From: a virus
Strand: one strand, 5' to 3'
IMG/VR virus record: IMGVR_UViG_3300009103_001698
Coordinates: 1 to 64,000 of that record
DNA: 64,000 bases
Each line of letters starts with the position of its first letter. Positions within the stretch are counted from its first letter, which is position 1. Shown piece after piece: positions 1,313 to 24,897 of the stretch. Below the pieces are notes generated by a model. The model was given only the letters and a program-made list of their open reading frames with translations, ran no database searches and was not told where the DNA came from. A program made the translations under genes and the position numbers.

Positions 1313-1346
1313 GTAAAAACTTTAAGTTTTTTGTTCTCTTGTGTTA

Positions 1347-1355
1347 CTATTTATA
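1347..1355 (+). promoter_or_regulatory. late-promoter-like element CTATTTATA
   Basis: CTATTTATA lies 21 nt before the ATG at 1377 and belongs to the recurrent family described in the findings. It resembles, but is not identical to, the T4 late -10 box TATAAATA. Confidence 0.45.
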
Positions 1356-1376
1356 ACATTCACAGGGACAACTATA

Positions 1377-2486
1377 ATGAAAAACTTCAAAGATCTGATC
1401 AAAGAAATAAAGACCAACGAAAATAAAGGTCTTGTAAATAAGCAGAAAGGTCTTTCTTTCAACTTCGATCAGCCGTTCGACAAGAAGAAGCTCGAAGAAG
1501 CCAACCTTCTCAATAAGATCAACGAGATCATAAAATTTAGAGACCCTATTTTAGAAACTATGTCTTATGAAAGTTGGGCTATGATCCTACAAAATAAGCT
1601 GGTTGAAGAGCTAGATCCAAAACAAGCCAAAATGTTATACGAACAGGATATGTTTAGAGCAGAGAAAGTCCAAACAGCTGCAAAAGCAAGGGCTGGACGT
1701 TCTGGTAGGGCAGGTGGCGGTGTGCGAAAAAGGAAGGTTGCTGCGGCTGTTGATCCTTGGACGCCATCAGATCTGCTCTTGAATGCTGGCGACGAGTACT
1801 ATCAACCCTCGACGATTGCGGGCGGGTCTGATGGGGTCAAGTTCTCTACCTGGAATGCAGAGGTAGCGGCGGGTGAGCCAGCGCAGACACTTTCTCAGAG
1901 CGACACAGCCCACCAGCCAAAATACCTAACAAGCGCAATCAACGGGGAGCCTGGGGTGCTGATGGGCCTTTATCCAGACGTACCGGAGGCCGACCTGAAA
2001 ATATCCGGTCCAATGGATTCCGACGCCTTCACTTTTGCAATGGTGACCCAGTTCACAGCACCGACAAGCGGGTTTACCCAGGGCGGCAGGATTGCGCGCG
2101 CTAGATGGAACAAGGGCCGCATAGACTACACTCCCTACTCAACATATAGCAGCACTGTAAGAGCTTATTATTCTGGAGCCAAAGGCGGTCCATACTTCAC
2201 CCCAGCAATTGATCACACTGTGCAGCACTGGATTGTATCGGGCGCAGACTCTGCAACCAATCTTGACTGGAAAGAGTCCACAACCGTGCTGGCGACCCCG
2301 AAAAGCAACAACACCCCCTCGAACAACGCTCAAATCACCATGAGCATCAGGTCTTATGAGTTTTCGGATGGGTCGACCGGCGACTTGGAGTGGAGGGTTG
2401 CCGAAATCCTCTACCTATCACGCGAGATATCAGCATCGGAAAAGACAAATCTTCTGGCCTATTGGCAGGGGAAGTACGGAGTATAG
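1377..2486 (+). CDS. LamG-type virion adhesin with helical N-terminal anchor
   Basis: This 369-residue protein has three parts. A charged, helical N-terminus starts MKNFKDLIKEIK and includes an INEIIKFRDP segment and a LYEQDMFRAEK segment. Next comes a basic Gly/Arg linker (GRSGRAGGGVRKRK, residues 110-125), then a divergent LamG-like jellyroll ending in RVAEILYLSREIS and YWQGKYGV. The anchor and linker are shared with the gene at 2496, but the heads differ, as expected for a receptor-binding family with swapped tips. I start at ATG 1377 rather than the in-frame GTG at 1341, because the GTG lies inside the promoter-like region. The first residues resemble the T4 capsid-targeting peptide pattern (MKxFxxLIxE), which is only suggestive. 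Confidence 0.7.
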   Translation: MKNFKDLIKEIKTNENKGLVNKQKGLSFNFDQPFDKKKLEEANLLNKINEIIKFRDPILETMSYESWAMILQNKLVEELDPKQAKMLYEQDMFRAEKVQTAAKARAGRSGRAGGGVRKRKVAAAVDPWTPSDLLLNAGDEYYQPSTIAGGSDGVKFSTWNAEVAAGEPAQTLSQSDTAHQPKYLTSAINGEPGVLMGLYPDVPEADLKISGPMDSDAFTFAMVTQFTAPTSGFTQGGRIARARWNKGRIDYTPYSTYSSTVRAYYSGAKGGPYFTPAIDHTVQHWIVSGADSATNLDWKESTTVLATPKSNNTPSNNAQITMSIRSYEFSDGSTGDLEWRVAEILYLSREISASEKTNLLAYWQGKYGV

Positions 2487-2495
2487 GAACCAACA

Positions 2496-3875
2496 ATGAG
2501 CAAAAAGAAAACATTCAAAAGATTTGTCAGAGAAGAAGTTTTAGGCGTCAAACCCGAAGATAAACAGTTTGATAAGTTTGAAGATTATGTTAAGGACGTT
2601 AGAGGGTATAAACCTCCTGAAAACAAAGCCGATTCTTTTGAACAGTTCCTAAAAGAAACCAAAGGTTACGAACCACCTGAACACAAATACGACTCTTTCG
2701 AACAAATGAAGGAAGAGGCAAGAGAAGAAACCAAACAACAACTCCTCGAAGAAAGAAAGATTTATGTTGAACCTACTCCTATTATAATAACTGACGAACA
2801 AATAGAGAAAGCAAATAGAGCACTTATCTTCAAAGAGATCAACGAAGTCCTAAAATTCAGAGATCCTGTTCTCGAAAAAATGACTTTTAAACAATGGCTA
2901 AAAATCCCACATAACAAATTTGTTTTTGAACTTGACGAACATCAAGCAGATCTGCTTTACGAGCAGGATATGTGGAGAGCAGAGAAATACCAAATCGCAA
3001 CCACAGCAAAAGCAAGGACTGGACGTTCTGGTAGAGCAGGCGGTGGCGGTGTGCGGAAAAGGAAGACAGCTGTCGCTGCTTGGAAACCATCAGATCTTGA
3101 AGGTTTATCGCTTTGGCTGGATGCTGACGATGCCTCTACCATAACCGAGAGCGGCGGTGCCATTTCGGGTTGGACAAACAAAGCCCCAGCACCATACGCT
3201 GGATTGTTTGATCTTACCCAGTCCAGCGCAGCGTCACAACCAGCTTTTGTAACCGACGGTCAGAACGGCAGATCGGTGGTGCGCTTTGATACAACAGTCG
3301 ACGAAGAGTTGAACGGTGTTGGGTCGGATGCATATCAAACGCCAGCGTCTAGCGGTAACGAGTTGACGCTGTTTACTGTTTGTCGATTCACCACGGGCCA
3401 CAGCATTACGCGTGCATACATATCTGGTATCATCGGTTGGGCACTGGATTCGAACTACAAATATGTCCCCGTTTTGAACAGACATTTTAATTTTGGAGAT
3501 AGCGAGGGCTATGGAGGTAGTCGCGGCATCACGGCACTTAACACAAAACCCCCCTATGACCGTGCCCAACTACAGACCAGTTTTACCGAAACAAACAAAA
3601 TTTACACATTCCGAAATCAAGCCACCGCACCACTGAGAATCGACGGCGATGGGAGCCTCACCCTCGACCGCAACGACTGCCCGCTGGTTGGTTTGAACCT
3701 GTCTGACACAACTAGAAAATGGTTGACCGTTGGGCGCGCTTACGCCGACAGCTATGCCAACAACTTTGACGGCGATATCTGCGAAATCATTTGTTATGCG
3801 GCCAACCTTTCAGACGCTGACACGGAAACAGTCGAAGAATACTTAGCCGATAAATGGGGCATAACGCTACCGTAA
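2496..3875 (+). CDS. LamG-type virion adhesin with repeated charged N-terminus
   Basis: This is a 459-residue paralogue of the preceding gene. It starts MSKKKTFKRFVREEV, then has a threefold imperfect repeat of about 22 residues (KFEDYVKDVRGYKPPE, SFEQFLKETKGYEPPE, SFEQMKEEAREE). The shared INEVLKFRDP and LYEQDMWRAEK anchor and the GRSGRAGGGGVRKRK linker follow (to about residue 192), and then one complete LamG head ending GDICEIICYAANLSDAD and YLADKWGITLP. The head is nearly identical in DNA, over roughly 150 bp, to a module inserted in the large gene at 7885. It starts 9 bases after the previous stop and is probably co-expressed. I infer a structural adhesin; the ligand is unknown. Confidence 0.72.
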   Translation: MSKKKTFKRFVREEVLGVKPEDKQFDKFEDYVKDVRGYKPPENKADSFEQFLKETKGYEPPEHKYDSFEQMKEEAREETKQQLLEERKIYVEPTPIIITDEQIEKANRALIFKEINEVLKFRDPVLEKMTFKQWLKIPHNKFVFELDEHQADLLYEQDMWRAEKYQIATTAKARTGRSGRAGGGGVRKRKTAVAAWKPSDLEGLSLWLDADDASTITESGGAISGWTNKAPAPYAGLFDLTQSSAASQPAFVTDGQNGRSVVRFDTTVDEELNGVGSDAYQTPASSGNELTLFTVCRFTTGHSITRAYISGIIGWALDSNYKYVPVLNRHFNFGDSEGYGGSRGITALNTKPPYDRAQLQTSFTETNKIYTFRNQATAPLRIDGDGSLTLDRNDCPLVGLNLSDTTRKWLTVGRAYADSYANNFDGDICEIICYAANLSDADTETVEEYLADKWGITLP

Positions 3876-5257: not shown

Positions 5258-5274
5258 TATTGGAGAAATAATAA

Positions 5275-5886
5275 ATGAAGTATATTATAATGTTACTGCT
5301 ATTATTTTCTTTTTCTTGCGACGATGGCAAGGCTGAACCTTTTCCATCGCAAGAAGAAATTGAGAAAAAAGCGATTGAGGCAATAAAAGCTGATACAATA
5401 ATCTTAATCCCGGGACCGCCGGCAGAACCGCCCCCGCCGATGTATAACGACACTTGGAAACTACAAGACATAAATCCAGATAGTAAAGATTTTAATAAAG
5501 TTTTTAATCTTAACAAGTTCAAGGGACAGAAGATCGTAATGGTCTTCCATTCAGCACCCTGACTGGCTTGTCAAGTGCAGGTTGCACTTATGAAAAAATG
5601 GAAACTGAACGACTATCCAGATACTGTATTTATCAGCGTCTTGGCAAAAAGTAGTACCAAACAAATTCACCTTCATCACGTTGAGAAATCAGACATAAAA
5701 GTTCTTCACGACATTGCTGAAATGTGGAAAACTTATGATGCTGGGAAATACACAACTTTCGTTTATAATGAAAAAGGTGAAGAAAAATGGCGTTATGATC
5801 ACAAGCCCGGAGCACTTTGTTATGCTTTCGGTGGTGCCATGTACATTAATACTTGGCAAGAAGAAGTTGAGAAAGCGTTGGAATAA
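5275..5886 (+). CDS. candidate selenocysteine-containing thioredoxin-like lipoprotein
   Basis: One frame runs from ATG 5275 to TAA 5886 (203 residues) with a single internal TGA at 5560-5562. It begins with a signal peptide (MKYIIMLLLLFSFSC, lipobox-like). A Glu/Pro-rich spacer and a thioredoxin-like fold follow: KGQKIVMVFHSAP, then UGA-Leu-Ala-Cys, then a helix, and a later TTFVYNEKGEEKWRY strand pair. The TGA thus falls exactly on the first redox residue of a CxxC motif, giving UxxC if read as selenocysteine. A perfect 7-bp hairpin with a GGT loop starts 10 nt after the TGA, as expected for a bacterial SECIS. TGA is an ordinary stop in neighbouring genes. Alternatives are a nonsense mutation (TGC to TGA) or two separate short genes; a split exactly at the active site, with no ribosome site at the second GTG (5575), makes the latter unlikely. 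I infer an envelope-located redox protein. Confidence 0.7.
5573..5589 (+). promoter_or_regulatory. candidate bacterial SECIS element
   Basis: AAGTGCA-GGT-TGCACTT forms a perfect 7-bp stem with a GGU tip. The tip starts 17 nt after the in-frame TGA, inside the 16-37 nt range given for bacterial SECIS elements. The GCAGGU...GC apex closely resembles that of the E. coli fdhF SECIS. The bulged U of fdhF is not present here. Confidence 0.65.
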
Positions 5887-7884: not shown

Positions 7885-10800
7885 ATGGCAAAGATCAATG
7901 CCCAAAGACATGTATCAGGCACACTACAGGCAAAAGGATTGGGACCGCAAAGCAACAAAGCGGTTGACCCCAATTCTGTGGATAATTGTACTCTTTGGAC
8001 TGACTTCACCGACACATCAAAAGTAAAAACAACTGGCTCTGATCCTGGCAACCAAATCTATAAGGTTGAGGACAAATCTCGTCAGGGTAATGATCCTTAC
8101 CAAAGGTATTTCTCTCCAACAGACTTTGCGGATTGTTCGCTGTGGCTGGATGCTGATGATGCTTCATCGATAACACTCAATGGAACAGACGTTTCACAGT
8201 GGAACGATAAATCCGGCAACAGCCGGCATCTGTCCCAGAGTGCGGCAACAAACCAACCAGCGCTAACCACCGCCGGACTGAACGGTAAATCGGTGGTCAC
8301 TTTTGACGGCAACGATAATTATCTGGTTCGTGACGATGCCCTAGGGTTCAGCGGGAACCCTGCCGCGTCAGTCTTCATTGTGGTGAAGGATAACGAGTAC
8401 GCAGGTTATGAGAATCGGGTCTTGAACTTTGGGAGGGATGGCAACAGTAACGACCGCCAGAACATCGGCTTTGGCACAGACGCAAGCTGGCGCTTCAATG
8501 GTGGCGCTCATGTGTTTGCCAATGACGAACTCGACGACAACGTGCCAGCCATTGGCACTTGGCGATGTCCAGCCGGTCAAACGTTTGCGGATAGTGATTT
8601 TTTCCGCAATGGCGCAGCTGGGGCGACAACATCGACAAGCAATCCATCTTTACAAGTCAATATTCCAAGCAGCGTGGATTTATACACCACCCTGGGCAAA
8701 GGCTGGGGTCAGAACAATGATCACAATGATAACATTTTTTGGATTAGCGGCTTCATCGCAGAGGTCATCGTCTACAATCGCTACATTACGGACGCAGAGC
8801 GAGCCACAGTAGAAACCTACCTCCAAAACAAATGGAACATAACAGTCGCAACACAGTCAGCTGATACCATCTTTACTTCTCATTATCCTAACCATTTAGG
8901 TACAGAAGGATTTGGGCTAAACAACCTTCCAAGTATGAGAGCAACAGATGCCAATCTTCATTTGGACATCTCTGGCTCTTGGACGTCCAACACTGGCTCA
9001 ACAGTATACGGAGTATTCCGCAAATACGAAAATTCAGGTAATGACTATCTCTTATCATACGGTGAGAGGAAAATAAGAACAAGCGGTTCCAACCTACAAT
9101 GGGTCGCAACAGGAGACACAACACTTCAAGCATCTTCTTCTTTATCAACAGGCACTGACTATTTGGTTACAGTCACAGAAGATAGAACGTCGACTTTCTC
9201 ACCAACAGACATTGTTAGTTGTTCACTGTGGTTGGACGCTGATGATGCTTCTTCAATAACACTCAATGGAACAAACATTTCACAGTGGACAAACAAAGCC
9301 CCAGCACCATACGCTGGATTATTTGATCTTACCCAGTCCAGCGCAGCGTCACAACCAGCTTTTGTAACCGACGGTCAGAACGGCAGATCGGTGGTGCGCT
9401 TTGATACAACAGTCGACGAAGAGTTGAACGGTGTTGGTTCGGATGCCTACCAAACCCCAGCCGCATCAAACGACGAGGTGACGATCTTTGCGGTTTGCCG
9501 ATTCACCACAGGACACACCATAACAAGACTAGCCGTCTCGGCTATTATTGGTTGGGGGTTGGATTCCAACTACAGGTGGGACGTATCACCCAAGGGCTGG
9601 TTTGGGTTTGGCGACGGAGAAAACAATAGCAACGGACACTGTCTGGTGGCGGACGGGTATAAAGAATCCAGTTCATTTGTAAAAGCCTCGCTCGCCAGTC
9701 CATTTGGATTCACCGAGAATAACCGTATCTACTCTTTTAGAAATCAAGCCGCCGCACCCTTGAGAATCAACGGCGATGGGAGTCTGACACTGAATCAAAA
9801 TGATGCTCCACTGGCAAATACTTATTACTCAGACACCGCGAAAAAGTGGCTGACCGTGGGACGGGGCAATGCTGAGAGTTACGCCAACAACTTCGACGGC
9901 GATATCTGCGAAATCATCTGCTACGCAAGAAACCTAACAGACGCTGAAACGACCACAGTAGAAACCTACCTCCAAAACAAATGGAACATAACAGTAGCAA
10001 CTTCGTCCTACACAGAAGGAAACGAACCTGTCTCCTCTATGTACCTCAATGGCGTATTAGAACAACACTCAACAGCAATAAGCTCTTCCAATACACTTGC
10101 TTACGGCTCAATCGGCGGTTCAGGTTCATCAGGCGGCAACTTCGCAGGCAACATTGGTGAGATTGTTATGTATGATCCTCCTGTTACATCGTGGAGAAAC
10201 AGAAAGAAAGTTGAAAGATACTTGGCAGACAAATACAACATTAACTATACAGGGTTCCAACCAGACCAAATAACAGCATCAATTGACGCAACTGGCAACA
10301 GCGATTCAAAGTTGGTTCTGTGGCTTGATGCTTCTGATCAGAGCACTGTTACTAATACAGTTGTTGAAGCTTGGGTACCAACAGACATTGTTAGTTGTTC
10401 GTTGTGGCTGGATGCTGATGATGCTTCTTCAATAACGCTTTCTCCAGCTGGAATAACATCGTCGATTAACACTAACTATGCTTTGGCTACTAATGGTTCT
10501 ACTGCTAGTGCTAGTAGTATCTCAGGTCAGTGGGGATCTCCACCTTCTGTTATTATCGACGGTGCTACTGATGGTAATGGCGAAGCAAAATGTAACCACA
10601 CAAACCAAGAAACCAACTCTTGGGTTCAAGTCGACTTCGGTCAAAGCAGAGACATAAATAAGGTTGTTATTTGGAATAGAACAGATGGTACTAACGAAAA
10701 TCGTCTAGACGGCTATAGGCTAGATTTTTATACTGGTTCGAATGGTGCAGGAAGTGTTGTCCATACGATCTCAGAAAGCCCGGGCAATGGTTGGGCAAGC

Positions 10801-12312
10801 ACCACTTCGACTTTGACTGCTTCAATAGAATGCCGTTCTATCCGACTGGTGAACGAAGATGCTACCCAGCCACAGTTTACCCACATAGCTGAATTTCAAG
10901 CTTTCCATGAGCGCGGTGGCGTTTCACAGTGGACAAACAAAGCCCCAGCACCATACGCTGGATTATTTGATCTTACCCAGTCCAGCGCAGTGTCACAACC
11001 AGCTTTTGTAACCGACGGTCAGAACGGCAGGTCTGTTGTGCGGTTTGATTACTCTGTAGATGAAGAGTTGAATGGTGTTGGCTCGGACGCTTACCAAACG
11101 CCAGCTTCTAGCGGTGGGGAACTCACGATCTTTGCTGTTTGTCGATACTCGACGGGGCACTCTAAGACAAGCACTTATATCGCCGGTGTTTTGGGCTTTG
11201 CCTTGAACTCTGCCTACGGGTTTTACTTTAGCGGCTCTGAAGGTGGTTTTGCGTTTGGAGATAGCGACGATTACGCCGGCCATTATCTGATGGGCGAAAC
11301 CATGCGCTTCCCCACAAACAGCGATTTTAAAAAGATATCACTTGCCAGCCCAAACGGGTTCACAGAAACCAATCGCATTTACACACTACGAAATCAAGCC
11401 ACCGCCCCCCTACGAATCAACGGCGATGGGAGCCAAACGCTTCAACACAACGACGCGCCCATGCCCGGTGTTTATCAGTCAGACACCGATCACAAATGGC
11501 TGACTGTCGGGCGTGGGTACGCCGACTATGCCAGCAACTTCGACGGTGATATCTGCGAAATCATCTGCTACGCAAAAAACCTAACAGACGCTGAAATGAC
11601 CACAGTAGAAACCTACCTCCAAAACAAATGGAGTGTTACAGTCGCAACTCAATCAAGCGACGTAACACCTTATTCAGCCGGCATCTCCAACTGGTCATCA
11701 AAGGTTGGCAGTATTTCTGCTACACAAACTTCTGCTTCTTACAGACCAACAACAGGCAGTATAGACGGAAAGAAGATGATCTTTTTCAGCGGTTCATCGG
11801 ATTCAACTGCTCCTTACTTGGAGATTACAGGTGCGGCAACGGCTTCACTGGACTTCGTTGCTGGAACAGACGCTTATACAGTATTCGTTGCTCACCAACA
11901 GAACTCTGGCAGTGGCTATGATACACTTATAGGCAGTGGACCACAATACGCTTTGAGCTATGACAGAAACAACGCTCTCCTCAAAAGTGACTTTGGCACA
12001 GGCACAGTTTCAGGAAGCAACACTCACGGTTCAACTTTCCACCTTGCCAGTTCTCTAACATCAACAACACTAAACAAAGTGTATGTTACAGGTACACTGT
12101 CAGCAACGGGTGCTATTGGAAGTGCTGTAACTGGCTCTTCTGCTGTTCATATTGGAGCACAAGAAGTTTCAAGTTCTGTAACCAACCGACTTCAAAGTGG
12201 TTCGATCGGAGAAATCCTTGTTTATTCAGGTTCTCTAACAAACTTTGAGAGAAAACAAGTTGAAGAATACTTATACGATAAGTGGGAGATAGAAACAAGT
12301 GCCTCTTATTAA
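7885..12312 (+). CDS. giant adhesin with LamG domains nested in LamG domains and one discoidin domain
   Basis: This 1475-residue protein reads as two host LamG domains interrupted by whole inserted modules. Host 1 runs CTLWTDFTDTSKV (about residue 35) to EIVMYDPP and YLADKYNI (about 790). It is broken by LamG inserts at residues 77-325 and 439-707. Host 2 runs LVLWLDASDQST (about 815) to GEILVYSGSLT and YLYDKWEI (end). It is broken by an insert at residues 830-1257, which itself contains an F5/8 type C (discoidin) domain at about 854-1012. Inserts start near PTDIVSCSLWLDADDASS and end YLQNKWNITVATQS. Discoidin and LamG folds commonly bind glycans, so I infer a receptor-binding or decoration protein. 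It has a GGAAATGAG leader and follows small structural genes. Confidence 0.75.
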   Translation: MAKINAQRHVSGTLQAKGLGPQSNKAVDPNSVDNCTLWTDFTDTSKVKTTGSDPGNQIYKVEDKSRQGNDPYQRYFSPTDFADCSLWLDADDASSITLNGTDVSQWNDKSGNSRHLSQSAATNQPALTTAGLNGKSVVTFDGNDNYLVRDDALGFSGNPAASVFIVVKDNEYAGYENRVLNFGRDGNSNDRQNIGFGTDASWRFNGGAHVFANDELDDNVPAIGTWRCPAGQTFADSDFFRNGAAGATTSTSNPSLQVNIPSSVDLYTTLGKGWGQNNDHNDNIFWISGFIAEVIVYNRYITDAERATVETYLQNKWNITVATQSADTIFTSHYPNHLGTEGFGLNNLPSMRATDANLHLDISGSWTSNTGSTVYGVFRKYENSGNDYLLSYGERKIRTSGSNLQWVATGDTTLQASSSLSTGTDYLVTVTEDRTSTFSPTDIVSCSLWLDADDASSITLNGTNISQWTNKAPAPYAGLFDLTQSSAASQPAFVTDGQNGRSVVRFDTTVDEELNGVGSDAYQTPAASNDEVTIFAVCRFTTGHTITRLAVSAIIGWGLDSNYRWDVSPKGWFGFGDGENNSNGHCLVADGYKESSSFVKASLASPFGFTENNRIYSFRNQAAAPLRINGDGSLTLNQNDAPLANTYYSDTAKKWLTVGRGNAESYANNFDGDICEIICYARNLTDAETTTVETYLQNKWNITVATSSYTEGNEPVSSMYLNGVLEQHSTAISSSNTLAYGSIGGSGSSGGNFAGNIGEIVMYDPPVTSWRNRKKVERYLADKYNINYTGFQPDQITASIDATGNSDSKLVLWLDASDQSTVTNTVVEAWVPTDIVSCSLWLDADDASSITLSPAGITSSINTNYALATNGSTASASSISGQWGSPPSVIIDGATDGNGEAKCNHTNQETNSWVQVDFGQSRDINKVVIWNRTDGTNENRLDGYRLDFYTGSNGAGSVVHTISESPGNGWASTTSTLTASIECRSIRLVNEDATQPQFTHIAEFQAFHERGGVSQWTNKAPAPYAGLFDLTQSSAVSQPAFVTDGQNGRSVVRFDYSVDEELNGVGSDAYQTPASSGGELTIFAVCRYSTGHSKTSTYIAGVLGFALNSAYGFYFSGSEGGFAFGDSDDYAGHYLMGETMRFPTNSDFKKISLASPNGFTETNRIYTLRNQATAPLRINGDGSQTLQHNDAPMPGVYQSDTDHKWLTVGRGYADYASNFDGDICEIICYAKNLTDAEMTTVETYLQNKWSVTVATQSSDVTPYSAGISNWSSKVGSISATQTSASYRPTTGSIDGKKMIFFSGSSDSTAPYLEITGAATASLDFVAGTDAYTVFVAHQQNSGSGYDTLIGSGPQYALSYDRNNALLKSDFGTGTVSGSNTHGSTFHLASSLTSTTLNKVYVTGTLSATGAIGSAVTGSSAVHIGAQEVSSSVTNRLQSGSIGEILVYSGSLTNFERKQVEEYLYDKWEIETSASY
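8113..8859 (+). repeat. inserted LamG module 1
   Basis: A complete LamG module of about 250 residues sits inside host LamG 1 of the 7885 gene. It opens PTDFADCSLWLDADDASS and closes YLQNKWNITVATQS. Removing it joins a continuous host domain. Confidence 0.6.
9199..10005 (+). repeat. inserted LamG module 2
   Basis: A complete LamG module of about 270 residues splits host LamG 1 between TVTEDRTS and SYTEGNEP, just before the host YLNG strand. About 150 bp (9288-9440) match 3173-3325 with only about one difference. Confidence 0.65.
10372..11655 (+). repeat. inserted LamG module 3, carrying a discoidin domain
   Basis: A LamG module inserted after the first strand of host LamG 2; its own first loop holds a discoidin domain (10444-10920). 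Outer borders match the other inserts. Confidence 0.65.
10444..10920 (+). repeat. nested discoidin (F5/8C) domain, copy 1
   Basis: About 155 residues with NYALATNGSTAS, WVQVDFGQSRDINKVVIWNRTD, YRLDFYTGSN and CRSIRLVNED, a typical F5/8C pattern. Close DNA similarity to 12449-12901. Confidence 0.65.
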
Positions 12313-15223
12313 TAAACAACGATTGATGGGTTCAGGACAGGTGACAAGCGCATCTGCTCAAAACGAAGGAACATTTCATCCAAAGCAAGTTTCAGGACTT
12401 CAACAATGGTATGATGCTTCTGACGCTTCAACACTTGCTACAGCGAGTGTTGTTACTGAAACTAACCATGCTTTGGCGAGCAATGGCTCTACTGCTACTC
12501 AGGTTGGTACCAACTATGGCGGCGTTGCGTCAAGAGCGATTGATGGTAATACTGACGGCAATTGGAACAATGGCTCTGTAACTCACACTAATTCTACAAC
12601 CAATGCTTGGTGGCAAGTAGATTTCGGTCAAACTAGAAGCATAGACAAGGTTGTTATTTGGAATAGAACAGATAACGCTCAGGATCGTCTAGACGGCTAT
12701 AGGTTAGATTTTTATACTGGTTCGAATGGTGCAGGAAGTGTTGTCCACACTATCTCAGAAAGCCCGAGCATCCCTAGTTGGACAAGCACCACTTCGACTC
12801 TGACTGCTTCGGTTGCCTGCCGCTCTATCCGACTGGTGAACGAAGATGCTACCCAGCCACAGTATCTCTCCATAGCTGAATTTCAAGCGTTTCAATCCGA
12901 GGTGGTAAGTCAATATCTATATCTCACACAATGGCAAGACAAAAGCGGTAATGCCTTTCACCTAACAGCAAGCAGCACAACATCAGCACCCGTATTATCA
13001 GCAAATGAGATCTATACACACGCAGCAGTTCAATTCTCTGGTACTGTATCAAGCTCACTGCCAGTTGTAACATCGTCTGCTGTTTATGGAAACAACTGGT
13101 ATCCAACCAGTATTGCTTCTTGTTCGTTATGGCTGGACGCTGACGATGCAAGCACGATAAGCGAGAGCGGCGGTGCTATCTCAGCCTGGACTAACAAAGC
13201 TCCCGCGCCCTATGCCGGGCTCTTCGACCTTACACAGAGCAATGGGGCAAACCAGCCTTCTCTGATAGCTGGCGGACAAAACAGCCGCTCTGTTGTGCGG
13301 TTCAACACGTCTGTGGATGAAGAGCTGAACGGCGTTGGTTCAGACACATATCAGACACCGGCCTCTAGCGGTAAAGAGATCACGATCTTTATGGTTTGTC
13401 GTTTTTCGACAGGTCACTCCAGAACAAGCCAATACATAGCAGGCATCCTGGGCTTTGCTTTGGACTCTGATTATAGAGCCAACGGTGCCGATAAGGGTGG
13501 CATTGCGTTTGGTGATGCAGAAGGTAGCGCCGGTCATTATCTGATGGGCGACCAGATGCATTGGCCCACGACCAACACATTCAAAAAAGCATCGCTTGCC
13601 AGCCCCAACGGATTCACCGAAAGCCAGCGCGTTTACACATTTAGGAACCAAGCCACCGCACCAATGAGAATCAACGGCGACGGAAGCCTGACACTTAAAC
13701 AGAACGACTCCCCCCTACTCGGTGTTTATCGGTCGGACACCGATCACAAATGGTTGACCGTCGGGCGCGCTTACGCCGACACCAGCTATCCCAGCAACTT
13801 CGATGGCGATATCTGCGAAATCATTTGTTATGCGGCCAACCTCTCGGACGCTGAAACGACCACAGTAGAAACCTACCTCCAAAACAAATGGGACATAACA
13901 GTGGCAACTCAATCAAGCGATATAACTTCAGACAACACAGATGTCGCCTATCCAACGCAATCTGTCTCAACCGAAGCCAAGTCTATTGTTGCTGTAATCA
14001 AGCAGGACAGCGCATCCTCGGGCTCTGTATGGGCATTCAAAAGTGGCAGCAACTACTACGGAACATTCTCAACAGACCGAGCAGGAAATACAGATTTTGC
14101 TTATGGCAGCAATACACAAACATCGTCTTTGACATCACCGTTTACCAACGCAGTACCAGCTGTTGTATCAACTGTCTGGGGCGGTGGGTATTCAAAGGTC
14201 TACAAAGACGGCACACTACAAACAAGCAACCAACTAAACAACACCATTAGTGGCAGTGCTCATCTGGTTATTGGACAAGAAGTTATTGATGGTCCTTGGG
14301 AACCAACAGACATTGTTAGTTGTTCGTTGTGGCTGGATGCTGATGATGCTTCTTCAATAACACTTTCTGGTTCCAATGTTACTCAATGGAGTGATAAATC
14401 AGGTAATGGAAATCATTATGGACACGCAACCGCAGCTAATCAACCTGCTTATTCAGCGTCTGTGATTAATGGTCGTTCTGTGGTGACAACATATGATTCA
14501 GGAGATGCCCAATTTTTAAGTTGTAGTTCTACAACTGATTATGTTGATAGCAGTAATCATTTTACAACTTTTATGGTTACTCAACAATATGATGAGACGG
14601 GCGGATACGGGGCTGCTTTACCGTTCTATTTTGGGGGTGCGTCTCTAACCAGTAATGGTTCTCAATATATAGCATATCAGCTGTGGGAGCCGGGTACTGT
14701 TTATTCTAATACCTATATGATGAATAATGCGTCAAAGGATGCCACTATATCAATTGATTGGTTAGCAGATTGGAAAGGACAAACCAAAATTATAACTGGT
14801 CGACAGCATTCTGCCGGGGTAGAATTGAGATTAACTGGTACGCTAGGCAATTTGAATGCCAGTGGCGTCAACACTGTAAATGGTACAGGGGCATCGTTGA
14901 TTGGAGCCGACCTCATCACTCAAACCAGTTACAGATCTAATATTCACTTCGCAGAAATCATTCAATATAACAGAGGACTAACAGACGCAGAATGTGCCAC
15001 AGTTGAAACCTACCTCCAAAACAAATGGGACATAACAGTAGCAACACAATCAACAAACCCAGTCCTAAACTCTGATAATACATCAACAGCAACACCAACA
15101 ACAAACGCTTGGTCAGGATCAATTGGAGAAATGCTTGTTTACAACCGAGCAATAAGCGATAAGGAAAGAAACCGAGCAGAAAACTATTTACAACAGAAGT
15201 GGAGAGTTACAGGAAGTAGCTAA
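12299..15223 (+). CDS. large adhesin: LamG host domain with discoidin and two LamG inserts
   Basis: This 974-residue protein is one host LamG domain, from GLQQWYDASDAST (about residue 32) to GEMLVYNRAISDKER and YLQQKWRVTGSS at the end. Three modules split it: a discoidin domain (about residues 51-201), a LamG module (267-539) and a second LamG module (667-918). Removing the inserts leaves an ordinary LamG sequence in order. I choose GTG 12299 because MPLINKQRLMGSGQ parallels the MAKINAQRHVSGT start of the previous gene and GGGAGA lies 8-9 nt upstream; ATG 12326 is the alternative. It overlaps the previous gene by 14 bases. I infer a surface glycan-binding virion protein. Confidence 0.72.
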   Translation: MPLINKQRLMGSGQVTSASAQNEGTFHPKQVSGLQQWYDASDASTLATASVVTETNHALASNGSTATQVGTNYGGVASRAIDGNTDGNWNNGSVTHTNSTTNAWWQVDFGQTRSIDKVVIWNRTDNAQDRLDGYRLDFYTGSNGAGSVVHTISESPSIPSWTSTTSTLTASVACRSIRLVNEDATQPQYLSIAEFQAFQSEVVSQYLYLTQWQDKSGNAFHLTASSTTSAPVLSANEIYTHAAVQFSGTVSSSLPVVTSSAVYGNNWYPTSIASCSLWLDADDASTISESGGAISAWTNKAPAPYAGLFDLTQSNGANQPSLIAGGQNSRSVVRFNTSVDEELNGVGSDTYQTPASSGKEITIFMVCRFSTGHSRTSQYIAGILGFALDSDYRANGADKGGIAFGDAEGSAGHYLMGDQMHWPTTNTFKKASLASPNGFTESQRVYTFRNQATAPMRINGDGSLTLKQNDSPLLGVYRSDTDHKWLTVGRAYADTSYPSNFDGDICEIICYAANLSDAETTTVETYLQNKWDITVATQSSDITSDNTDVAYPTQSVSTEAKSIVAVIKQDSASSGSVWAFKSGSNYYGTFSTDRAGNTDFAYGSNTQTSSLTSPFTNAVPAVVSTVWGGGYSKVYKDGTLQTSNQLNNTISGSAHLVIGQEVIDGPWEPTDIVSCSLWLDADDASSITLSGSNVTQWSDKSGNGNHYGHATAANQPAYSASVINGRSVVTTYDSGDAQFLSCSSTTDYVDSSNHFTTFMVTQQYDETGGYGAALPFYFGGASLTSNGSQYIAYQLWEPGTVYSNTYMMNNASKDATISIDWLADWKGQTKIITGRQHSAGVELRLTGTLGNLNASGVNTVNGTGASLIGADLITQTSYRSNIHFAEIIQYNRGLTDAECATVETYLQNKWDITVATQSTNPVLNSDNTSTATPTTNAWSGSIGEMLVYNRAISDKERNRAENYLQQKWRVTGSS
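12449..12901 (+). repeat. inserted discoidin (F5/8C) domain, copy 2
   Basis: A discoidin domain inserted in the loop after the first host strand, the same loop used by copy 1. It has WWQVDFGQTRSIDKVVIWNRTD and YRLDFYTGSNGAG, almost identical to copy 1. Confidence 0.65.
13097..13915 (+). repeat. inserted LamG module 4
   Basis: A LamG module of about 273 residues, opening WYPTSIASCSLWLDADDAS and closing YLQNKWDITVATQS, interrupts the host domain after SSAVYG. Confidence 0.6.
14297..15052 (+). repeat. inserted LamG module 5
   Basis: A LamG module of about 252 residues, opening WEPTDIVSCSLWLDADDASS and closing YLQNKWDITVATQS, interrupts the host domain after VIGQEVIDG, just before its last strand and helix. 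Confidence 0.6.
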
Positions 15224-23892: not shown

Positions 23893-24897
23893 ATGATTGC
23901 AGATGTAGTTCTTGGTCTTCAGCACGGAGACGAAGGCAAAGGGAAAATTACGCACCATTTATGTAAAACTGGTGGGTATACTCATGTTATTCGTTTTAAT
24001 GGTGGCTGTAACGCTGGTCATACAATTTATCACAAAGGTAAGAAGTTTGTTACTCACCACATTCCTGTAGGAGTGTTCTTTGGGGTTAAATCTATTATTG
24101 GTCCAGGTTGCGTTCTAAATCCAATACAGTTTTTAAAGGAACGTCAAGAACTTATTGACGGTGGAATAGATTTAGACGGATTGCTTTTTGTTGCCGAAAA
24201 CACACACATTATTACTAGTGAGCATTTAGAAGAGGACGGGAAAGATACAAAGATCGGCACAACAAAGAGAGGCAATGGACCAGCTTATAGAGACAAATAC
24301 AATCGTTCAGGTTACATAGCAAAAAATGTCAACATTCTACAGCCTTATCTTATTAATATGTATGAAGCACTCCATGACAACAAGGAAAAAGAAGTTAAAA
24401 TCCTCTTTGAGGGTGCTCAGGGTTTTGCTCTTGATATTGATTGGGGTGATTATCCTTTTGTAACTTCCAGTCATTGTACAGTAGGTTCTGCTCTTCTAAA
24501 TGGCGTTCCTCCGCAAGCTATTCGTAATGTTTGGGGTGTTGCCAAGATCTATGAGACATATGTCGGCGCAAAGAAGTTTGAGCCAGACATTCCTATTTTT
24601 AAGAGGATTAGAGAGGTTGGCGAAGAGTTTGGAGCAACAACAGGACGTCCAAGACAGTGTAACTGGCTAAACTTCGAAATGCTGGATAAGGCAGTTAGAG
24701 TTAACGGCGTTAATAAGCTTATTTTCAACAAAATAGATGTTCTTGACGAAATTGGGCAGTGGGCTCTAAAAAGTGAATCAGGTTATAAAGTTTTTAGTAC
24801 TGGGCAACGGATGCAGGACTGGATTATAGAACAATTCAAGCGCAATGAATTCTTGGGAATAGAAGTTATTTTCTCAGGAGACAAAAACGGCATTTAG
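23893..24897 (+). CDS. purA: adenylosuccinate synthetase (PurA/PurZ superfamily)
   Basis: This 334-residue enzyme joins IMP (or a dGMP-type substrate in the phage PurZ branch) with aspartate using a nucleotide triphosphate. It has GDEGKGK (residues 12-18), NAGHT with the catalytic His (43), TTKRGNGPAYRDK, GAQGFALDIDWGDYPFVTSS, GATTGRPRQ and the base-recognition NKID. It is shorter than bacterial PurA (about 430) and matches the compact archaeal/phage type. Asp13 is retained; phage PurZ enzymes that make the diaminopurine precursor usually carry Ser there, and they use ATP, whereas NKID here suggests GTP. So a PurA or a GTP-using PurZ-like (PurZ0) enzyme are both possible. No other diaminopurine-pathway gene is seen in the window. 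Confidence 0.88.
   Translation: MIADVVLGLQHGDEGKGKITHHLCKTGGYTHVIRFNGGCNAGHTIYHKGKKFVTHHIPVGVFFGVKSIIGPGCVLNPIQFLKERQELIDGGIDLDGLLFVAENTHIITSEHLEEDGKDTKIGTTKRGNGPAYRDKYNRSGYIAKNVNILQPYLINMYEALHDNKEKEVKILFEGAQGFALDIDWGDYPFVTSSHCTVGSALLNGVPPQAIRNVWGVAKIYETYVGAKKFEPDIPIFKRIREVGEEFGATTGRPRQCNWLNFEMLDKAVRVNGVNKLIFNKIDVLDEIGQWALKSESGYKVFSTGQRMQDWIIEQFKRNEFLGIEVIFSGDKNGI

Follow-up and report, generated by a model that had tools for sequence, protein, structure and literature searches.

Introduction

Thioredoxin-fold oxidoreductases of the ResA, StoA and TlpA type, and Etrx of Streptococcus pneumoniae, are secreted or lipid-anchored proteins with a CxxC-type active site, in which the first position is a Cys, not a selenocysteine (Sec, U), and they carry a cis-Pro loop of the PTTF type. 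The NCBIfam family NF053656 (redoxin_TUGYCR, described as 'TUGYCR motif thioredoxin fold (seleno)protein') has a UxxC site in a thioredoxin-like domain, with the U encoded by UGA. In the Escherichia coli fdhF gene, the SECIS element consists of a small GU-containing loop on a short stem, located soon after the UGA. Many thioredoxin-like selenoproteins are found in ocean metagenomes (PMC9402790). As for bacteriophages, a tRNA-Sec gene has been reported in Basilisk-like Bacillus phages (PMC6145125) and in huge phages from wastewater (PMC10747093). Our literature search, which did not reach most subscription papers, returned reports of tRNA-Sec in phages and none of a phage selenoprotein, in line with the initial annotation of this DNA, where selenoproteins in phages were said to be little described.

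Here we analyze a locus at positions 5275-5886 of a 64,000-nucleotide stretch (the window), which is part of an 81,936-base (81.9 kb) IMG/VR virus record. We consider it highly probable that this locus is a phage-borne, divergent TUGYCR-type selenoprotein gene whose product is made with the Sec machinery of the host; Sec insertion, the host, the membrane location and the redox role are inferred. With only slightly less assurance, we regard the product as one of the first selenoproteins from a bacteriophage for which there is support in the sequence. It would be a seleno-thioredoxin of the envelope that has diverged and whose gene brings its own SECIS, and this selenium-dependent auxiliary gene would serve a marine phage in the infection of selenium-using bacteria. 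The reading frame, the homology, the hairpin geometry and the Sec machinery of one candidate host metagenome-assembled genome (MAG) were computed directly.

A single frame with one in-frame TGA

Positions 5275-5886 of the plus strand form one frame that terminates at a TAA and contains a sole in-frame stop, the TGA at 5560-5562, exactly as the initial annotation had described it. A Shine-Dalgarno-like GGAG (5263-5266, plus strand) lies 8 nt upstream of the ATG. Readthrough of the TGA would yield a thioredoxin-fold protein of 203 residues (MKYIIMLLLLFSFSCDDGK...FHSAPULACQVQVALMKKW...), with U96 in the first position of the UxxC site and the resolving Cys99 encoded by TGT (5569-5571, plus strand), so that the active site would be U-L-A-C within a P-U-L-A-C motif. 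The 5' end of the gene (5275-5319, plus strand) encodes a probable lipoprotein signal, MKYIIMLLLLFSFSC, which was identified from the sequence only; several Marinimicrobia members of the NF053656 family have N-termini that resemble it. Lipid anchoring of the phage protein at Cys15, and with it an envelope location, is inferred from this signal and is probable.

The coding potential of the two halves was evaluated using the codon usage of the phage. Past the TGA, this frame is the coding one, with a log-likelihood of +18.4 versus -7.8 to -15.1 for the five other frames. The half before the TGA is less clear-cut (+6.1), and one competing frame scored +4.9. The locus meets the redox-position criterion of a bacterial selenoprotein gene, namely an in-frame UGA at the catalytic site with the frame open on both sides.

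Relationship to the TUGYCR family

The best curated family match of the phage protein is NF053656, with an E value of 1.4e-5 over residues 60-171 when U is read as Cys. When U was masked the match weakened to an E value of 0.0035, and neither half alone matched, from which it can be deduced that the match spans the UGA. Profiles derived from the Marinimicrobia UxxC members matched the phage protein with E values of 7e-8 (U as Cys) and 1e-5 (U masked); the best of 2000 shuffles reached 0.9. The match to a StoA profile was weaker than that to NF053656 (E 0.018), and that to Pfam AhpC-TSA was weak.

Two family signatures flank the U. The phage octapeptide LQDINPDS (5461-5484, plus strand), which fits the LxDxNxxS pattern of the family, lies 33 residues before U, and the pattern is found 33-34 residues before U in 43 of the 44 UxxC Marinimicrobia members. 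In the phage protein the WxxY...G signature (WKTYDAGKYTTFVYNEKG; 5725-5778, plus strand) follows U at a distance of 55 residues, and in 38 of these 44 members at 58-62. The LxDxNxxS and WxxY/W signatures did not occur together in any of 100,000 shuffles, and both were missing from the three Cys-type TlpA-like proteins checked; the membership criterion based on the signatures is met. A PTTF cis-Pro loop of the TlpA type was found in none of the UxxC members, and the phage protein, which has KYTTF, also lacks it. Neither does the phage protein meet the two-Cys CxxC criterion of ResA and TlpA, since its first position is a UGA.

Other features count against membership of the curated family. The phage protein scores 25 bits with NF053656, far short of the 100 bits that the curated cut-off requires. 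The UG-x-C-R motif is not conserved (U-L-A-C-Q in the phage, hence ULAC versus UGxC), and the RFGxLN stretch that follows the motif in the family is absent. Furthermore, the raw identity of the phage protein is ∼21% to TUGYCR members versus 27% to a Cys-type TlpA protein (L245). With these identities and the unmet cut-off, we conclude from the sequence comparisons that the phage gene is not a curated member of the TUGYCR selenoprotein family but diverges from it as a relative; the family is abundant in Marinimicrobia, a group of ocean bacteria. The U of the phage protein aligns with the Sec of the NF053656 members and with the first Cys of the CGPC motif in L245. The initial annotation had placed the TGA at the first Cys of a CxxC motif and expected homologues with Cys or U at this position that continue on both sides; the alignments bear this out.

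Single-sequence structure models of the phage protein were weak (pLDDT 43-45) and were used solely for the order of strands and helices, but this order is that of a thioredoxin, and U96 is predicted near the start of the first helix. A fold search with a query model of this quality (pLDDT 43-45) gave Bcp, ResA and Etrx lipoproteins as top matches.

No close relatives of the phage gene were found among viral contigs, phage and plasmid records, GTDB genomes (searched by pattern) or 50 related phage records. Since the gene is known from a single copy, its UGA and hairpin have no conservation to support them, and this counts against the proposal. Pattern scans yielded no further candidates. A scan of IMG/VR for UxxC together with an fdhF-like apex gave 111 stretches, and the 80 of these that were examined were all chance matches; the 60 matches to the family pattern TGAGG...CGGTTYGG were likewise all due to chance, and the HSAPUxAC pattern had one chance match, in a portal-like gene.

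A SECIS-like hairpin downstream of the TGA

The sequence AAGTGCA-GGT-TGCACTT (5573-5589, plus strand) forms a hairpin whose stem has 7 bp and whose GGU loop (5580-5582) occupies nt 18-20 (+18 to +20) after the TGA. The initial annotation had reported this stem and its GGU tip, and both are exact. To place the hairpin among other TGAs, 423 kb of the phage and its fetched relatives were surveyed on both strands. Of the 14,494 TGAs present, only that of the phage hairpin is followed by seven uninterrupted Watson-Crick pairs enclosing a 3-nt loop that starts at +18. When looser geometries were accepted, provided that one of the first two bases of the loop was a G, 7-bp stems followed 0.19% of the TGAs. 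Synonymous recoding of the same peptide with the phage codon usage yielded a 7-bp stem at P = 0.003 (0.3%). The free energy of the region downstream of the UGA was unremarkable (z = -0.22). Since the sequence that follows the UGA has no unusual stability, energy was excluded as evidence, and the signal is carried by geometry and position. The hairpin described in the initial annotation is confirmed, and it exceeds what chance would give. An Rfam search returned nothing above threshold.

The hairpin was compared with those of the bacterial family, from which 44 UxxC and 28 UxxU sequences were extracted. A hairpin is common to the UxxC genes: its stem has 7 bp, and its loop, GUU, occupies +18 to +20 after the UGA. 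This hairpin covaries: its outer pairs switch type, with many two-sided changes, and on average 5.6 of the 7 pairs are Watson-Crick, versus 3.7 after synonymous resampling and 1.2-2.4 when one side was slid. The phage hairpin differs from it in the loop sequence (GGU versus GUU), but shares the stem length, the 3-nt loop with G in first place and the distance from the UGA, and the SECIS-like reading of the initial annotation is upheld by this match to a covarying hairpin of homologous bacterial selenoprotein genes. The SECIS criterion of a bacterial selenoprotein gene, a hairpin soon after the UGA with a G early in the loop, is also met. With the fdhF SECIS it has in common a small GU-containing loop on a short stem near the UGA, although fdhF belongs to another gene family. 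If our interpretation is true, the hairpin is a natural minimal SECIS of 17 nt and 7 bp.

In the UxxU sub-family (L285, L286 and L290-L315, from Marinimicrobia genomes) two in-frame UGAs are located nine bases apart, and a single conserved hairpin is found 17-20 nt downstream of the second UGA.

Alternative explanations and proposed mechanism

The TGA is one base away from TGC or TGT, and a related phage encodes a Cys-type TlpA-like lipoprotein with a GWCGPC motif (L084). The locus could thus be a Cys-type thioredoxin lipoprotein gene in which TGC or TGT became TGA, either by a nonsense mutation, leaving a pseudogene, or by a miscalled base in the assembly, and we have no read-level view of the TGA at 5560. 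We consider this improbable, because it leaves unexplained a 7-bp hairpin with the family geometry, seen after 1 of 14,494 TGAs and at P 0.003 upon synonymous recoding, and because the closest family normally has a TGA at the same codon. A hairpin located 3' of a stop codon can favour readthrough in general. The phage hairpin is real and no SelB binding data exist for its loop, so that the UGA might be read without selenium, by near-cognate decoding (e.g., by tRNA-Trp) or by a regulated readthrough in which the hairpin slows the ribosome. The UGA, however, is exactly at the catalytic Cys/Sec position of the fold and the hairpin has the Sec geometry of the family, and we give selenium-free readthrough very little weight. 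Even less credit is given to a pair of short genes translated independently of each other (5275-5562 and 5575-5886), without any readthrough: GTG 5575 or ATG 5590 could mechanically start the second frame, but each half would be a partial thioredoxin fold, and neither half alone matches any redox family, as the joined frame does.

We therefore favour a phage selenoprotein in which the UGA is read as Sec. This interpretation, already put forward in the initial annotation, was supported wherever checks could be run; the host is inferred, and there are no data on readthrough. In the mechanism that we propose, the SelA and SelD enzymes of the host would make Sec-tRNA(Sec), which would be carried by SelB. 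SelB would then bind the 7-bp hairpin with its GGU loop 18-20 nt past the UGA at 5560, and it is inferred that Sec is inserted at residue 96 in place of termination. The product would have a thioredoxin fold and a thiol/selenol redox site, Sec-Leu-Ala-Cys, and a lipid anchor would probably hold it in the envelope. Its inferred role in this compartment of the infected cell is one such as thiol/disulfide exchange or the handling of oxidants. The gene was probably captured from a host of the Marinimicrobia type. If true, phages exploit the 21st amino acid of their host, infection is partly selenium-dependent, and this phage clade is linked to Sec-decoding marine bacteria. Ordinary gene-calling programs end genes of this type at the UGA, and further examples may therefore lie unnoticed in viral databases.

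Candidate hosts and their Sec machinery

A host could not be assigned through isolate relatives, the nearest isolate phages having <36% identity in PhoH. Phage contigs of the clade were located in MAGs via the conserved phage nuclease. They were found in four MAGs, labelled Marinimicrobia, WOR-3, Maricaulis and Flavobacteriales, and share three to six genes with the window, most often those for PhoH, the nuclease and a glycosyltransferase. The Marinimicrobia MAG, MED589 (phage contig L233), carries tRNA-Sec, SelA adjoining a frame-split SelB, and six NF053656 matches. In the WOR-3 MAG SelB is present, and the best tRNA-Sec candidate is a tRNA-Leu; no SelB above the cut-off was found in the Maricaulis and Flavobacteriales MAGs. 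Matches to NF053656 were detected in 67 of 245 genomes of the phylum of MED589, where nearly all members have one or two in-frame TGAs. The phyla to which the Flavobacteriales and WOR-3 MAGs belong yielded none, in 396 and 147 genomes, respectively. The binning of phage contigs is unreliable, and hence the host is a lead only: that it belongs to the Marinimicrobia is inferred and rests on MAG binning. Of the host Sec machinery expected in the initial annotation, SelA, SelB and tRNA-Sec are thus present in one candidate host MAG, but the identity of the host is not settled.

Two irregularities were noted in these assemblies. In MED589 (L386, 4862-6735) a frameshift splits selB beside an intact selA, probably as a result of a sequencing error. 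In the WOR-3 chromosome CP070664 (L235) a run of clade phage genes lies inside the MAG 'chromosome', with runs of N in the frames on either side, and could be a chimeric join.

Phage genome context

A repeated SLWLDADDAS-type domain is found in several genes on both sides of the locus (43-846, 1341-3875, including 2496-3875, and 7885-15223), which likely encode adhesin or fibre proteins. Genes for PhoH, a head protease and baseplate proteins are located downstream. These neighbours indicate that the locus is phage DNA. TGA closes 19 of the 53 long stop-to-stop frames of the phage, so that it is used as a normal stop and there is no general recoding. The phage differs from the Basilisk-like and huge phages in that it carries a candidate selenoprotein gene, and its record yielded no tRNA-Sec; when the phage and 48 relatives were searched, only scores below the family cut-off were obtained. 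The phage would therefore depend on host machinery.

In related phages, the parts that were fetched do not contain the region of the candidate selenoprotein gene. One related phage record (G018; L084, 1348-2136) encodes the Cys-type TlpA-like lipoprotein mentioned above, with the motif SAGWCGPC, and envelope thioredoxins may thus recur in the clade. Elsewhere in the window, the gene at 23893-24897 is adenylosuccinate-synthetase-like. It scores 284 bits with PurA and 120 bits with PurZ, under both cut-offs, its PHROGs label is 2-aminooxy adenylosuccinate synthetase, and a link to modified DNA bases is possible.
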